From a virus, in the IMG/VR virus record IMGVR_UViG_3300035670_000018, positions 1-64,000 of that record: DNA of 64,000 nt; one strand, written 5' to 3'. Shown here piece after piece: positions 574-6,313 of the stretch (positions are counted from its first letter, which is position 1; each line of letters opens with the position of its first letter). The position numbers and the translations under genes are program-made. Under the pieces are notes generated by a model. It was given only the letters and a program-made list of their open reading frames with translations. It did not search any database and was not told the origin of the DNA.

Positions 574-899
574 AAACATTCAAAGAATATCTCAATGAGA
601 ATACGCTTGATGACGTTCATGCTTATGCCAAAGAAAAAGGTGTGCATTTAGACATTGATAAGTATCATCGCACAAATGCATATCATCTATCTTGGATAGA
701 TCGTGGTTCAGGTAACAAAGGTGCCGGTCGTGAAGTTATGAATAAACTGCACGATCACGCAGACAAAAATAAAAAAGAGATTCATCTTGTGGCACATGAA
801 TCTCATCCAAAGTTGATATCTTATTACAAAAAGATGGGATACAAATCACGTGGTGAAACAGATGATGGCACACTCATGGTAAGAAAGCCGAAAAAGTGA
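570..899 (+). CDS. Small GNAT-family acetyltransferase with capsid-targeting-like N-terminus
   Basis: This 109-aa protein has the C-terminal part of a GNAT N-acetyltransferase fold: a glycine-containing acetyl-CoA loop (GNKGAGREVM, about residues 49-58) followed by a strand and the motif-B-like helix LISYYKKMGYKSRG. It starts with ATG at 570, overlapping the previous stop as ATGA; the frame remains open upstream to 543. Residues 1-10 read MKTFKEYLNE. As I recall it, the T4 capsid-targeting peptide of internal proteins is MKTYQEFIAE, which gp21 cleaves after the Glu. The match in length and pattern suggests packaging into the head and delivery with the DNA; that is inference. At 109 aa the protein is shorter than usual GNATs (about 140-180), so the N-terminal strands may be minimal. 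The substrate is unknown. Confidence 0.65.
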   Translation: MKTFKEYLNENTLDDVHAYAKEKGVHLDIDKYHRTNAYHLSWIDRGSGNKGAGREVMNKLHDHADKNKKEIHLVAHESHPKLISYYKKMGYKSRGETDDGTLMVRKPKK

Positions 900-1567
900 A
901 AAAGTTTAAGTATGTTGATGGTCTGCCAACGCTTCATTCACTTGATACAGACGAAAGCACAGGCGAGAGATTCTATATCACACCTAATGGCGTGAAGCTG
1001 CCTTCCGTTACAACTGTTCTTGGTCATTTCAAGAAGAAGTCTCTCATTGAATGGCGCAATCGGATTGGAAATGAAGAAGCAGATAAGGTAATGTATCGTG
1101 CTTCCAATCGTGGCACAAGATTCCACAACATGATGGAAGGTTATCTCCGCAATGAGGATGACTTTCTCAATGGTGTAATGCCTGATATGAGACAAGCTTT
1201 CAACGATATGAAAGAAACGCTTGACTTGATTGACAATATACGCTATATTGAAAGTCCTCTCTTCAGTGAGAAGCTTGGTGTTGCAGGAAGAACAGATGTT
1301 ATCGCAGAGTTTGCTGGCTTACCTTCCATCATAGACTTCAAGACTTCCACCAAAGAGAAGAAAGAACACTGGATTGATAACTACTTTGAGCAGGGCACAG
1401 CCTATGCTCTAATGTATGAAGAACTTGTAAAAGAGCCGATAAACCAGATTGTCATTCTCATATCGGTTGACTTTATGGAACATCCACAGGTTTTCATTCG
1501 TGATAAGAATCAGTATGTTCAAAACTTGTTGGAAAAAATTCACTTATACAAACAGGAAAAACTCTAA
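896..1567 (+). CDS. PD-(D/E)XK superfamily exonuclease
   Basis: This 223-aa protein resembles the Cas4/RecB-type single-domain phage exonucleases. The visible core is PSVTTVL near residue 36-42, GTRFHNMMEGYL at 73-84, an acidic E120, GRTD at 131-134 and IDFK at 146-149. The last two form the D-x(n)-(D/E)xK metal site, and Q166 with Y170 forms the conserved QxxxY helix. It probably degrades or trims DNA ends during replication or recombination. The start is GTG at 896, overlapping the upstream stop by four bases. The next gene overlaps by TAATG, so the block is likely co-transcribed and translationally coupled. No N-terminal helicase domain is present. Confidence 0.8.
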   Translation: MKKFKYVDGLPTLHSLDTDESTGERFYITPNGVKLPSVTTVLGHFKKKSLIEWRNRIGNEEADKVMYRASNRGTRFHNMMEGYLRNEDDFLNGVMPDMRQAFNDMKETLDLIDNIRYIESPLFSEKLGVAGRTDVIAEFAGLPSIIDFKTSTKEKKEHWIDNYFEQGTAYALMYEELVKEPINQIVILISVDFMEHPQVFIRDKNQYVQNLLEKIHLYKQEKL

Positions 1568-1780: not shown

Positions 1781-2452
1781 ATGAAACGTTATGTGATTGG
1801 TGATGTGCATGGTTGCTATGATGAACTTCATGAATTGATGAATAGAATTCATGATCATGCTAATGGTGAAAAGATCAAAGTGATTTTTGTCGGCGACTAT
1901 GTTGATCGTGGTCCTGATTCAAAGAAGGTTGTTGATTTGATCATGTATCTAACTTCAATGCATGATCATGTTGCACTGATGGGCAATCATGAAGATATGT
2001 TGCTTGACGGCGATTTCACTTATGCTGAGGCTACGCTTCGCAGTTTCAACAGCAAGCTTACCCCACTTATGGAACTGCCTGATTATGTGACTGATTGGAT
2101 GCGAACTCTGCCGAAGTATTATGAAGATGATACAATCATCGTTGCTCATGCTGGTGCAAACCCTGCATGGCCAATGGATCAGCAGACAGATCAAATGCTT
2201 TTGTGGATGCGATATGAAGAATATCATCACGCACAGTTGCCAAAGCATTTCTATCACGGTCATACACCACGATTGGGCAAGATTGAACAAATAGATGATC
2301 GCACAAACGTTGATACTGCTTGTGTATATGGCGGGCATTTGACTGCTGCGATTGTAGGAGATGATGGCAAGCCTGAAGGTTTCATTCAGGTGCCACAAAA
2401 GGGTGGTGTATATGATATGAGTGATGCTCAATCGAAAGGTTGGGAAGTCTAG
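1781..2452 (+). CDS. Ser/Thr protein phosphatase (PPP metallophosphoesterase)
   Basis: This 223-aa protein has the complete PPP signature: GDVHG at residues 7-11, GDYVDRG at 38-44 and GNHED at 68-72. Later metal-binding histidines lie in VAHAG and YHGHT. Size and motif order match the phage lambda phosphatase group, which dephosphorylates phosphoproteins or acts as a metal-dependent bis-nucleoside tetraphosphatase. The start at ATG 1781 lies one base after the previous stop and puts the first motif six residues from the N-terminus, as in the family. It is the last gene before the tmRNA. A possible role is reversing host kinase signalling during infection, but the target is unknown. Confidence 0.88.
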   Translation: MKRYVIGDVHGCYDELHELMNRIHDHANGEKIKVIFVGDYVDRGPDSKKVVDLIMYLTSMHDHVALMGNHEDMLLDGDFTYAEATLRSFNSKLTPLMELPDYVTDWMRTLPKYYEDDTIIVAHAGANPAWPMDQQTDQMLLWMRYEEYHHAQLPKHFYHGHTPRLGKIEQIDDRTNVDTACVYGGHLTAAIVGDDGKPEGFIQVPQKGGVYDMSDAQSKGWEV

Positions 2453-2530
2453 TATCATATATACTATGTTATCGGTGAAGGAAAACGAAAAACGAACTGG
2501 ACTGGGGTTCAAATCCCCACACCTCCACCA

Positions 2531-2642
2531 AAGACACTAGCAAGTGGCCATTGAGTGTTATGGGTAACACTCTTGAATAAAAAACCCAAGTCAAGCCGAG
2601 GGCGTAATGCGGCGACATATAAAAAAGGCTAGTGTCTCTGAT
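2531..2642 (+). other. Intervening segment of pre-tmRNA with perfect inverted repeats
   Basis: This 112-base segment joins the acceptor-piece CCA end to the coding-piece 5' end. AGACACTAGC (2532-2541) is perfectly complementary to GCTAGTGTCT (2628-2637), which would extend the acceptor stem into a long hairpin. Inside it, GAGTGTTA/TAACACTC (2553-2560/2565-2572) forms an 8-bp hairpin with a 4-base loop. In two-piece tmRNAs the corresponding loop is removed by processing enzymes such as RNase P. No coding potential is seen. Confidence 0.8.
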
Positions 2643-2727
2643 GGGGGTGTTACTGGGAATCGACAGGCGTGGAATAGTGGACTGGAGATAACCGTAGGCG
2701 ACTACGTACAAGCGCAAAACTCTAAAT

Positions 2728-2775
2728 GCAAATGATAACAACATTGCATCTAAGGCTTACGCTCTAGCAGCGTAA
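2728..2775 (+). other. tmRNA proteolysis-tag reading frame
   Basis: Resume codon GCA at 2728 opens the frame ANDNNIASKAYALAA followed by TAA at 2773-2775. The ANDN start is shared by most alphaproteobacterial tags. The hydrophobic LAA end is the usual ClpXP-type degron; YALAA matches the end I remember for rhizobial tags, which I cannot verify here. At 15 residues it is a little longer than typical tags. The A-rich stretch just upstream of the resume codon is normal for tmRNA. Confidence 0.92.
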
Positions 2776-2845
2776 TACCTGTGGGTATGGCTCCACCTAG
2801 AAACAGAACGGGCCACCTTAACACACATGACACAGGAGAAATATC

Positions 2846-3097
2846 ATGTCAAAGAACCCTTACGAAATCCGTCTAGAACTTCTTCATATTGCGCGAGATT
2901 TTATTATTGAGCAAAATATGAACGAACGCATCCGTCTTGAGAATGATTGGGGCCTTGAAAGAGAAAAGGCTTCCATTGCACTATCTCAAGGACAGGATGT
3001 AACGTTGCCTCCGTTTCCAAGCGTGCCTAATATGGACGCAGAAGCTATCATCAAGCTGGCTGAAAAGCTGAACGGGTTCGTATCCAAGAATGAATAG
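2846..3097 (+). CDS. Conserved small T4-like phage protein (83 aa)
   Basis: This 83-aa acidic, mostly helical protein has a clear ribosome binding site (AGGAG at 2834-2838, 7 bases before the ATG). The opening pattern NPYEIRLELL...ARD is one I associate with small proteins of unknown function in T4-like marine and alphaproteobacterial phages. It sits directly after the tmRNA and ends just before an intrinsic terminator, so the tmRNA and this gene may share a transcript. No catalytic motif or membrane segment is visible, and the function is unknown. Confidence 0.75.
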   Translation: MSKNPYEIRLELLHIARDFIIEQNMNERIRLENDWGLEREKASIALSQGQDVTLPPFPSVPNMDAEAIIKLAEKLNGFVSKNE

Positions 3098-3103
3098 AAA
3101 ATC

Positions 3104-3133
3104 AGAGGGGAGTATTGAAACTCCCCTCTTTTT
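3104..3133 (+). terminator. Intrinsic terminator
   Basis: Perfect 10-bp stem AGAGGGGAGT/ACTCCCCTCT (3104-3113/3120-3129) with a 6-base loop runs into TTTTT at 3129-3133. It closes the tmRNA-containing transcript and isolates the downstream protease gene, whose own start follows 13 bases later. Confidence 0.9.
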
Positions 3134-3146
3134 AAGGAAGATAAAA

Positions 3147-4118
3147 ATGAAATTCTTATCTGTAAGTCTACTATCACTTCTGCTTCTTGGTTGCAATAAT
3201 ATCTCTACAGTGAACATTGCTCAACAGGGTGTTTCTGGAACAGTGTTAATCAACAGCCAAATTGATCTTACCACAGGAGCAACAGGAACAGGATTCTTCA
3301 TTGGTGATAATCAAATTCTTACGAATCATCATGTCGTATCAGGAAGAAGTGATATCTACATCTATTCAAGCAATAGCAACAGAAAGTATGCTGCAAAGAT
3401 AAAGCATACAGATCCTGTTTCTGATATTGCCATTTTAGAATTGATTGATTGGGAAGTATTCAAAAGAAACGAACTTCCTAAGAATATGGAATTTGATAAC
3501 AGTGACTCGGTTGGCGTTGGCAGTAAAGTTGTAGTTATTGGTCATCCTTCAGGTCTTGTCTGGAGTGTATCTGAAGGTATCATTTCTGGCGAAAATCGCA
3601 GAATTGGAATGAATCCTAAGTTCATGAATCAGGTAGATGCTAATCTTTTCCAAGGCAACTCTGGCGGTCCTGTATTTGGATCAAACGGAAAAGTTGTATG
3701 TGTAAGCACTATGATGCTGACAATTGAAGGCGGTTCTTATGGTTTTTGTATTCCTTCAAATCTTGTAAAGAAGGTTCTAAACGATTTTGAACTTTTTGGT
3801 AAAGTACGTTGGAGAGTGTTAAACATAACAGCAGGATTGACAGATGACGGATCTTCTGTTATAGTACAATCATTAGAGCCTGATGGTGCGGCATACAAAG
3901 CAGGAATTAAAGAGGGTGATAAGATACTGGAAATATACACACCAAAAAATCATCCTGGTGGTATCACGGTAAAAAACATGGACACTTTAGTTACTGAACT
4001 TGCTCTACTGAACGGCGATGATATTGATGTTAAGCTAATGATTGATAGGAATGGTAGCAAGATGCTGATTGATGTTACAACAAACTATAAACTCTCTTCT
4101 GATTATACGGCGGATTAA
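3147..4118 (+). CDS. HtrA/DegP-like serine protease, lipoprotein with PDZ domain
   Basis: This 323-aa trypsin-fold serine protease has a lipoprotein signal. Residues 4-15 are hydrophobic and end in the lipobox LLGC, so Cys16 would be lipidated and the protein would face the periplasm. The catalytic triad of the S1C family is visible: His62 in TNHHVV, Asp93 in SDIAIL and Ser172 in GNSGGPVF. A C-terminal PDZ-like segment (VQSLEPDGAAYKAGIKEGDK, about 235-254) would bind exposed C-termini of substrates. I chose ATG 3147 (RBS AAGGAAG at 3134-3140) because it starts exactly at the signal peptide; the longer frame from 3090 would run through the terminator. Possible roles are envelope quality control during infection, processing of a periplasmic target or superinfection effects. 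Confidence 0.88.
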   Translation: MKFLSVSLLSLLLLGCNNISTVNIAQQGVSGTVLINSQIDLTTGATGTGFFIGDNQILTNHHVVSGRSDIYIYSSNSNRKYAAKIKHTDPVSDIAILELIDWEVFKRNELPKNMEFDNSDSVGVGSKVVVIGHPSGLVWSVSEGIISGENRRIGMNPKFMNQVDANLFQGNSGGPVFGSNGKVVCVSTMMLTIEGGSYGFCIPSNLVKKVLNDFELFGKVRWRVLNITAGLTDDGSSVIVQSLEPDGAAYKAGIKEGDKILEIYTPKNHPGGITVKNMDTLVTELALLNGDDIDVKLMIDRNGSKMLIDVTTNYKLSSDYTAD

Positions 4119-4120
4119 TC

Positions 4121-4348
4121 ATGCCTACAAAAGAAGAGATTACAACGTTCTCTCTGAAGATTGAAACATTAGTCTCAGAGAAGAACATTCCATATATGGA
4201 CGCAATCGTCATGCATTGTGAAAGCACAGGTCTTGAAATTGAACTTGCTGCAAAGCTTATTTCAGGCGCATTAAAATCTAAAATTCAAATTGAAGCTGAA
4301 GAACTTAACTTCTTACCAAAGTCAAACACAACAAAACTACCTTTTTGA
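4121..4348 (+). CDS. 33: Late promoter transcription coactivator gp33-like
   Basis: This 75-aa protein resembles the short gp33 form of exo-T-even and cyanophage T4-likes. It has a helical core (SEKNIPYMDAIVMHCE, then ELAAKLISGALKSKI) and a C-terminal hydrophobic tail (LNFLPKSNTTKLPF) at the place where gp33 carries its sliding-clamp binding motif. In T4, gp33 bridges RNA polymerase and the gp45 clamp to activate late promoters with sigma factor gp55. The synteny supports the call: 33, 59 and 32 are also grouped in T4. TATAAATA late promoters occur across the window. gp55 is not in this window. Confidence 0.75.
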   Translation: MPTKEEITTFSLKIETLVSEKNIPYMDAIVMHCESTGLEIELAAKLISGALKSKIQIEAEELNFLPKSNTTKLPF

Positions 4349-5061: not shown

Positions 5062-5717
5062 TGGACATTAATGATGTTTTTAAGTCTTCTGAGAGGGACA
5101 AGATCCTGCATATGAAGAGCATGGCCAAGTCATATATCGGTATGATATTTGATTATGATATTGATGATTTTAGTCATTATCTTGTTGTGTCTGGTGGCGC
5201 TTTCCCTGATTGGTTTCACGGTAAAGATCCAAAAGACATTGATGTTTTCGTGCTGCATGATGACACAGCAAAGAACAAGCTCCGTTCATATCTTGGCGGC
5301 AGGGGCTTTGTACTTAAGAGTATAGACTATCTAAAGCAGACAAATCCTGGTGCTACTCATGTCCAAGAGATTTGGGAAGGTACTTCTCATCCCAACGGCA
5401 GAAAGTATCAATTCATCTTTACTGATTATTGGTCGCGTGAAGAACTAATCAAGGGCTTTGATTACAAGCATTGTATGGTGTCATATGATGTGGGCAAGAA
5501 TCAGATTTACACCACTCGTCAAATCTATGATGCCATTGCTAACAAGCACCTCATTGTGAACAATCAGAACAGAGTTGCTGAATGGCGCCGCACAAAGTTC
5601 TTGGATCGCGGCTATACTGTGCCTGTAAGAGAAGTGGTTGCTTCTACAACTATGCAAGAATTATATGAAAAACATCGTGATCGTCTTATGAAGGAACTAA
5701 AAGTGAATGGACAATGA
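5061..5717 (+). CDS. Nucleotidyltransferase-fold (pol beta/tRNA-NT-like) protein
   Basis: This 218-aa protein carries the signature of the DNA polymerase beta-type nucleotidyltransferase superfamily: VVSGGAFPDWF at about residues 41-51, followed by PKDIDVFV. That is the hG(G/S)x(n)DxD layout that binds Mg-NTP. CCA-adding enzymes and aminoglycoside nucleotidyltransferases use the same signature. A mixed alpha/beta region and a basic C-terminal helical tail follow. ATG 5061 shares an A with the upstream stop, and the 3' end overlaps gp59. A role in RNA end repair or small-molecule modification is plausible; neither can be shown from sequence alone. Confidence 0.65.
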   Translation: MDINDVFKSSERDKILHMKSMAKSYIGMIFDYDIDDFSHYLVVSGGAFPDWFHGKDPKDIDVFVLHDDTAKNKLRSYLGGRGFVLKSIDYLKQTNPGATHVQEIWEGTSHPNGRKYQFIFTDYWSREELIKGFDYKHCMVSYDVGKNQIYTTRQIYDAIANKHLIVNNQNRVAEWRRTKFLDRGYTVPVREVVASTTMQELYEKHRDRLMKELKVNGQ

Positions 5718-6313
5718 AGCTTACAGGATACGAAACGTACTGTACCTATCTTGCACTGAAGCAGCACTTTACCAAAGAGAATTATGACTACTTTCGTTAC
5801 AATGGTAAGGTGCATGTCAGCAAGGAATCATTCCTGAACCGCAGAGATAGGTTTCAGTTTGAGAAGCTGGCCAGAAAGTGTGATGATGTAAAGTCACACA
5901 TGATAGCTTGCTTCATGTGTGATAAGACATGGATTGGCGATATGTTAGATCATGATGCCTTTGAGTTTGCAAAGGGTAAAGCGAAGAACCGTCAGTCCAT
6001 GTCTTACATTTTCAAGAATGAAATTGGACAATACGATGATCTCAGACAACTCTTCAAGAAAGAAGATGGAAGACCTGATGGTTATCCAATGATATTAAAT
6101 GAATACATGCGAGGCGATGTGACACTGGAAACAGTGATCATTCTAGATCACTTCGTTGGGTTCATTAACAAGTTTGATGCTAAACTCAAGAACGACTTTC
6201 TGTGGTCTAAGTTTAGCTTCAAAGCACGGAAGTACGCGCCGTTCCTGCTCCAAGACTTAGACAAAAAAAAGTTTGCTAAGATACTAAAAGAGCATGCCAA
6301 AGCATATATATAG
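5714..6313 (+). CDS. 59: gp59-like replicative helicase loader
   Basis: This 199-aa basic, helical protein matches T4 gp59 (217 aa) along its length as I remember it. Shared features are the YxxYLxxKQH opening helix, the NRRDRFQFEKLARK segment (T4: KRRDKYFFQKLSEK), a WIGDM motif near the middle, and a C-terminal ETxIxLD helix. gp59 binds fork DNA and gp32 and loads the gp41 helicase. It sits immediately upstream of gene 32, as expected. The start overlaps the preceding gene by ATGA. Confidence 0.85.
   Translation: MKLTGYETYCTYLALKQHFTKENYDYFRYNGKVHVSKESFLNRRDRFQFEKLARKCDDVKSHMIACFMCDKTWIGDMLDHDAFEFAKGKAKNRQSMSYIFKNEIGQYDDLRQLFKKEDGRPDGYPMILNEYMRGDVTLETVIILDHFVGFINKFDAKLKNDFLWSKFSFKARKYAPFLLQDLDKKKFAKILKEHAKAYI

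Follow-up and report, generated by a model that had tools for sequence, protein, structure and literature searches.

Two-piece tmRNAs, encoded by circularly permuted genes, are already known in phages. Counts among phage genomes gave 53 two-piece tmRNAs called by ARAGORN (PMC9004378), and 79 unique phage tmRNA sequences have been listed when all forms are considered (PMC11915505). In the Methylophilales phage Melnitz, a two-piece SsrA lies directly upstream of a coactivator gene (PMC9004378). Its authors described ssrA as following an early promoter and reported that its 3′ portion contains a glutamine riboswitch, which they do not regard as a defining feature (PMC9004378). In Pelagibacter phage Mosig, an SsrA is annotated within the order PD-(D/E)XK nuclease - SsrA - gp33 - gp59. 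The gene studied here belongs to an IMG/VR virus record of 167,363 bases and lies within its first 64 kb; this stretch of 64,000 nucleotides is hereafter called the window. As in Melnitz and Mosig, the SsrA of the window is permuted, in two pieces, of the alphaproteobacterial type, carried by a T4-like phage and encoded beside gp33. Similarity to both sequences is, however, low, and the tag differs from that of Mosig (GEDNFALAA by ARAGORN). Moreover, the window tmRNA is preceded by a late-type motif, whereas that of Melnitz follows an early promoter. The riboswitch of Melnitz has no counterpart either, since a search of window positions 2300-3000 found no Rfam family other than tmRNA at E<=1. 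A two-piece tmRNA in a T4-like phage, to which the first-pass annotation of this DNA drew attention, therefore has precedents, one of them at the same locus, and taken alone the window gene adds a further member to a known group.

The existence of a circularly permuted (two-piece) tmRNA gene of the alphaproteobacterial type at positions 2468-2817 was confirmed. Covariance searches matched RF04321 (tmRNA_permuted) at 2468-2775 with 100.2 bits (E=2.5e-18, Rfam gathering cut-off 47). The alphaproteobacterial model RF01849 (alpha_tmRNA) matched at 2408-2817 over its whole length (1-355) with 56.4 bits (E=6e-13), only 6 bits above its gathering cut-off of 50. The first-pass annotation had proposed such a gene from the sequence and each element that it listed was found in place, including the full complementarity of the acceptor strands (2520-2526 with 2643-2649, 7/7). 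An anatomical rule combining an ANDN frame, a TCGA D region, 7/7 acceptor pairing with NCCA and a T stem gave one match in the window, none on the opposite strand and none in 2.56 Mb of shuffled window. ARAGORN makes no call for this gene in the window; it does call a permuted tmRNA in many of its close relatives. In whole-record searches, RF04321 scores fall below the cut-off when spacers are long (28 bits for the group of contigs represented by L109). The ARAGORN miss, together with this loss of score, suggests that counts of phage tmRNAs are probably underestimates.

The elements of the gene and of its surroundings are collected in Table 1. The acceptor stem is recovered in the precursor fold and contains a wobble pair, G2645-U2524, corresponding to G3-U70. 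The G3-U70 pair is an identity element of alanyl-tRNA synthetase. Pairing of the P2 strands is accompanied by compensatory changes in relatives (ATTGTC:GACAAT in L015, ACTATC:GATAGT in L093). A single-sequence fold favours pairing of GTTATC with the GATAAC located inside the tag (2734-2739) over P2, but this alternative receives no support from the relatives. The 3′ pseudoknot region follows the tag and extends to 2817. Neither an ORF nor a tRNA was found in the window spacer.

Table 1. Features of the tmRNA locus in the window and HNH endonuclease ORFs in the tmRNA spacers of relatives (positions refer to the window unless a contig is named).
Feature	Position	Strand	Basis or remark
PD-(D/E)XK exonuclease, conserved upstream neighbour	896..1567	+	phrog_298, PF12705; same order in Mosig
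Late-type promoter candidate CATATATAC	2456..2464	+	Directly upstream of piece 1; degenerate match to TATAAATA
tmRNA piece 1	2468..2530	+	P2 5′ strand, T arm, 3′ acceptor strand, encoded CCA; RF04321/RF01849, sequence, co-fold with piece 2
P2 5′ strand GTTATC	2468-2473	+	Pairs with GATAAC 2687-2692
T arm TGGGG-TTCAAAT-CCCCA	2503-2519	+	Sequence
3′ acceptor strand CACCTCC	2520-2526	+	Followed by discriminator A 2527 and CCA 2528-2530
Intervening segment (spacer), 112 nt	2531..2642	+	Excision expected
Spacer-closing helix, 5′ arm AGACACTAGC	2532..2541	+	Paired with 2628-2637 in precursor fold
Spacer-closing helix, 3′ arm GCTAGTGTCT	2628..2637	+	Precursor fold, pairing in relatives
Conserved TGAT	2639..2642	+	Adjoins 5′ acceptor strand; in 83/94 distinct spacers
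5′ acceptor strand GGGGGTG	2643..2649	+	Predicted mature 5′ end of piece 2; 7/7 pairing
D-loop region CTGGGAATCGACAGG	2653..2667	+	Among close relatives, shared only with L004/L005/L006 group
P2 3′ strand GATAAC	2687..2692	+	Compensatory changes in relatives
mini-PK1 stem-loop CGTAG-GCGA-CTACG	2693..2706	+	Sequence; counterpart AGTAG/CTACT in L015
Tag reading frame ANDNNIASKAYALAA + TAA stop	2728..2775	+	Rfam alignment
Exchanged module: tag after ANDN + 3′ pseudoknot	2740..2817	+	Module identity, AU tests
HtrA/DegS-like PDZ serine protease	3090-4118		Lipoprotein signal MKFLSVSLLSLLLLGC
gp33-type late-transcription coactivator, conserved downstream neighbour	4121..4348	+	PF16805, phrog_254; same order in Mosig
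gp59	5714-6313		Homologue match
Spacer HNH ORF, L028	L028:2683-3111		142 aa
Spacer HNH ORF, L030	L030:5208-5663		151 aa; L108 is the same contig
Spacer HNH ORF, L109-L114	L109:2001-2462		154 aa; six contigs
Spacer HNH ORF, L176/L243			156 aa
Spacer HNH ORF, L118-L121	L118:2001-2312		104 aa; different HNH type

Homologues of the terminase, portal gp20, sheath gp18, gp48, gp6, gp22, gp33 and gp59 identify the phage as a T4-like myovirus, as the first-pass annotation had supposed. Its portal is nearest to those of cyanophages and of Mosig (55-58% identity). When 25 kb was compared with phage records in a near search, nothing matched. Genes in the window are arranged in the order nuclease, phosphatase, tmRNA, 83-aa ORF, HtrA-like protease, gp33 and gp59. 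Because the order nuclease - tmRNA - gp33 - gp59 is common to the window and Mosig, and because the tmRNA of Melnitz is also upstream of the coactivator gene, the locus can be considered old and shared. Among the relatives described below, gp33 or gp59 is found downstream of the tmRNA in 36 of the 54 distinct loci that are followed by 3 kb or more of sequence. The phage record contains neither SmpB nor SspB, so that the tmRNA would depend on host partners. The HtrA-like protease is rare among phage records. It also lies beside the tmRNA in L021, L023, L028, L032 and L245, and a protein search of viral contigs with its sequence returned no relatives. This protease was considered as a partner of the tag and rejected, since its lipoprotein signal indicates a location outside the cytoplasm and since it is present in some relatives only.

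Relatives were gathered by pattern and protein scans of IMG/VR, then with RF04321, and by a sequence scan for the 3′ pseudoknot. The resulting set comprises 101 distinct permuted phage tmRNAs, among which 59 different tags are found. The start of the tag is conserved by construction, since ANDN was a search criterion. The end of the tag was not a criterion; AA is found at the end of all 59 distinct tags and LAA at the end of 53. The G3-U70 pair is present in 101/101 relatives, G-C having been equally allowed in the search. The tag frames of the relatives are under purifying selection, with pN/pS values of 0.14 within APR tags and of 0.31 and 0.48 within two length classes; the two shifted frames give 1.05 and 2.32. 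In agreement with the first-pass annotation, according to which the tag differs from known host tags, the window tag looks phage-specific. Indeed, 84,980 species genomes of bacteria and archaea were scanned without a match to the pattern ANDNxxxxKA[Y/F]ALAA, and the 3′ pseudoknot pattern is found in at least 120 viral contigs and in 0 of the same 84,980 genomes, both scans using exact patterns that divergent bacterial copies could escape. Two one-piece phage tmRNAs (L008:9226-9656 and L011:9385-9794) were also observed. Their acceptor ends in CCACAA in the DNA, meaning that CCA is not encoded, and their D region resembles that of the window gene.

Compensatory changes also concern the spacer. 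The bases at its start, after CCA, pair with a stretch that ends five before G1; among the 94 distinct spacers with a length of 40 nt or more, 88 show at least eight consecutive pairs in this register. In these spacers, 91.8% of the cells of the helix are paired (0.918), against 61.4% (maximum 65.6%) when the arms are re-dealt among sequences. The helix measures 9-12 bp across relatives. Since the spacer loops are only about 45% identical between groups while pairing is kept, the helix is maintained as the sequence drifts. Its role may be to keep both ends of the spacer together for processing.

The timing of expression is suggested by the motif found directly upstream of piece 1, which is consistent with late transcription of the tmRNA. 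At the same place, the T4-type late motif TATAAATA occurs in L081, L082, L089, L093, L095, L096 and L097, and L099 has ATAAATAC at this position. Within the window, TATAAATA is also found upstream of gp18, of gp22 and the next gene, of gp48 and of others. Overall, the anatomy of the gene, its conservation, the compensatory changes, the selection acting on the tag frames of relatives and the mosaicism described below make it very probable that the window encodes a working, phage-lineage-specific two-piece tmRNA of the alphaproteobacterial type, late-made, processed and charged by the host and able to rescue ribosomes, whose modules are exchanged between phages. One precursor would be made from the late-type promoter, and its spacer would close on itself via a helix stacking beneath the acceptor stem. 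Host tRNA-processing enzymes would then excise the spacer by cutting at 2530/2643, leaving two pieces held together by the acceptor and P2 helices. The tmRNA would be charged by host AlaRS through G3-U70. With host SmpB, it would release stalled ribosomes and append a tag whose YALAA end should be recognisable by host ClpXP. As far as can be judged from the sequence, late-expressed ribosome rescue with host SmpB, AlaRS and ClpXP is the most likely function, and it is plausible that the gene serves to control ribosome rescue or tag-directed proteolysis, as put forward in the first-pass annotation. The phage would likely benefit from functional ribosomes and proteolysis at a time of frequent mRNA breakage and, possibly, of fading host ssrA expression.

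Other interpretations of the gene can be considered. The lack of recognition by ARAGORN and the low RF01849 score would fit a decaying, functionless copy captured from a host. Decay is, however, difficult to reconcile with an intact acceptor, T arm, tag and stop, with compensatory changes in both P2 and the closing helix, or with selection on the tag. In addition, the locus is conserved across divergent phages and exact-pattern scans found the 3′ module in no bacterial genome, so that this origin appears most improbable. A functional RNA could nevertheless act otherwise than by rescue. Once charged and bound to SmpB, the phage tmRNA might be a competitor or decoy whose altered tag diverts tagging from host proteolysis, thereby shielding phage products. 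A point in its favour is the tag-less tmRNA-like RNA of mycobacteriophage DS6A, which is reported to inhibit endogenous tmRNA in E. coli (PMC11915505). The phage-specific character of the tag outside ANDN, with no bacterial match to the tag pattern, and the diversity of the 59 tags would also be compatible with it. But a decoy could freely lose the AA ends or the peptide; the peptide is kept by purifying selection, and the invariant AA and frequent LAA ends are those expected of tags inducing proteolysis. A decoy thus seems unlikely, and a tmRNA that rescues ribosomes and tags for proteolysis is preferred.

The tag of the window nevertheless has a history distinct from that of the rest of the gene. 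Up to the ANDN codons, the window gene resembles L004/L005, and its tag and 3′ pseudoknot resemble those of L094/L092/L080. With L004 (tmRNA locus L016), identity is 1.00 in the T arm and acceptor, 0.99 in the spacer, 1.00 in the D region and 0.97 in P2/PK1/ANDN, and drops to 0.58 in the tag; with L005 (tmRNA locus L018), it is 0.64 in the tag and 0.52 in the 3′ pseudoknot. Conversely, L094 is 0.61 identical in the T arm and 0.46 in the spacer, as compared with 0.92 in the tag and 0.98 in the 3′ pseudoknot. The 5′ and 3′ parts give conflicting trees. AU tests, in which groups were chosen after the alignment had been seen, rejected the grouping of the window with L080/L092/L094 for the 5′ part (p=3.7e-8) and with L018 for the 3′ part (p=7e-8). 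The switch is located in or beside the conserved ANDN codons, at about 2739. T-loop and D-loop types travel together (TTCAAAT with CTGGGAATCGACAG, GGCAGTA with CTAGGATCGAC). An assembly chimera of two phages co-occurring in the metagenome could mimic such a swap, and the ends of contigs L004 and L005 indeed fall inside or close to the tmRNA, which points to local strain variation of the kind that troubles assemblers. However, the same kind of switch is observed on another background, L088 (type A tag) and L094/L092 (type B) being 1.00 identical in P2/PK1/ANDN and 0.56-0.58 in the tag, and 11 tags are found with more than one T-loop sequence. Moreover, the exchanged module continues into a downstream ORF that is 84% identical to ORFs of both L005 and L094. 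A chimera is therefore decidedly unlikely. By all appearances, the window tmRNA is a mosaic that acquired its tag and 3′ pseudoknot by recombination from an L094-like phage tmRNA; by exact pattern no bacterial donor is found for the module, and phage donors are at hand. The gene would thus be inherited at a fixed T4-like locus (nuclease - tmRNA - gp33 - gp59) while its modules are swapped between phages, the crossover in the window having occurred within the conserved ANDN codons.

In relatives, the spacer itself can be occupied by genes. HNH endonuclease ORFs fill the tmRNA spacer in 14 contigs representing five tmRNA contexts (Table 1). PHROGs matches identify the encoded proteins as homing or HNH endonucleases (phrog_655, E=1.7e-11 to 6.7e-15; phrog_2255, E=2e-25). 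The L030 protein has seven close homologues (identity of 66% or more), each encoded in a tmRNA spacer, and three more distant ones encoded elsewhere. Rfam confirmed the tmRNA around the insertions and detected no intron in the HNH-bearing spacers, so that a group I intron was discarded as the cause of long spacers. Around the insertions, acceptor pairing and G3-U70 remain intact although the bases have changed (GGGCTAG:CTAGTCC in L028, GGGCCAG:CTGGTCC in L030). For most of these ORFs, the stop codon is the TGA within the conserved TGAT that adjoins the 5′ acceptor strand. In L109, L030 and L028, a hairpin precedes the start of the ORF, with TATAAATA or CTAAATA in its loop and a ribosome site in or next to its 3′ arm. 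A hairpin and late-promoter layout has been reviewed for I-TevI, I-TevII, I-TevIII, SegB and MobE of T4-like phages (PMC2988022). The phage record of the window has no HNH gene by PF01844. Other spacers contain small ORFs stopping at the same TGA (64 aa in L070, 54 aa in L210) or, in L007:1306-1575 (minus strand), a complete tRNA-Ala(TGC) at 1433-1504. Downstream of position 2219 in L115, a more distant HNH homologue is seen just upstream of an apparent tRNA-Ala gene, judged by eye; tRNA-like acceptor ends may perhaps be the target of this HNH family.

As the spacer would be excised from the RNA anyway, a gene inserted there should be harmless to the tmRNA. This raises the possibility, to which we give somewhat less than an even chance, that the permuted tmRNA spacer of T4-like phages offers HNH homing endonucleases an intron-like safe harbour. 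Cleavage and repair in the spacer region would be the driving force behind swaps of the tRNA-like domain and the tag, a model that would explain both the spacer genes and the mosaics. If so, selfish DNA would be a source of diversity for the degradation tags of a family of tmRNAs specific to phages. The spacer endonuclease genes also suggest that an RNA-processing spacer can substitute for an intron as a site for mobile DNA, and this role may have kept or spread the permuted layout. Independently, phages whose tmRNAs are nearly identical except for the tag constitute natural pairs for testing the role of the tag in infection. In the literature searched, with most subscription journals outside its reach, no report was found of a swapped tag, a covarying spacer helix or endonuclease genes in the spacer.

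Compared with the Caulobacter-type two-piece tmRNA (RF01849), the window gene has the same order of pieces, a G3-U70 acceptor, an ANDN...ALAA tag, a mini-PK1 and a single downstream pseudoknot. It differs by a 3′ pseudoknot pattern seen, in exact-pattern scans, in phage contigs only, and by a long closing helix and a spacer TGAT that are absent from the RF01849 model; in addition, the spacers of its relatives can hold genes. The sole BLASTN match among 50,697 phage records is a permuted, previously unannotated tmRNA of Sinorhizobium phage Phosso, with a 3′ module of the same type and the tag ANDNVSTKVALAA. Phosso is, however, a 469-kb jumbo phage, in which the spacer measures 410 nt and the flanking genes are different. 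Finally, the spacer endonuclease genes of L109, L030 and L028 share with I-TevI, SegB and MobE of T4 a hairpin, a late promoter in its loop and a ribosome site in its 3′ arm (PMC2988022). Whereas the homing endonucleases of T4 reside in self-splicing introns or at intergenic sites, the HNH genes of the relatives are housed in the presumably processed spacer of a permuted tmRNA.
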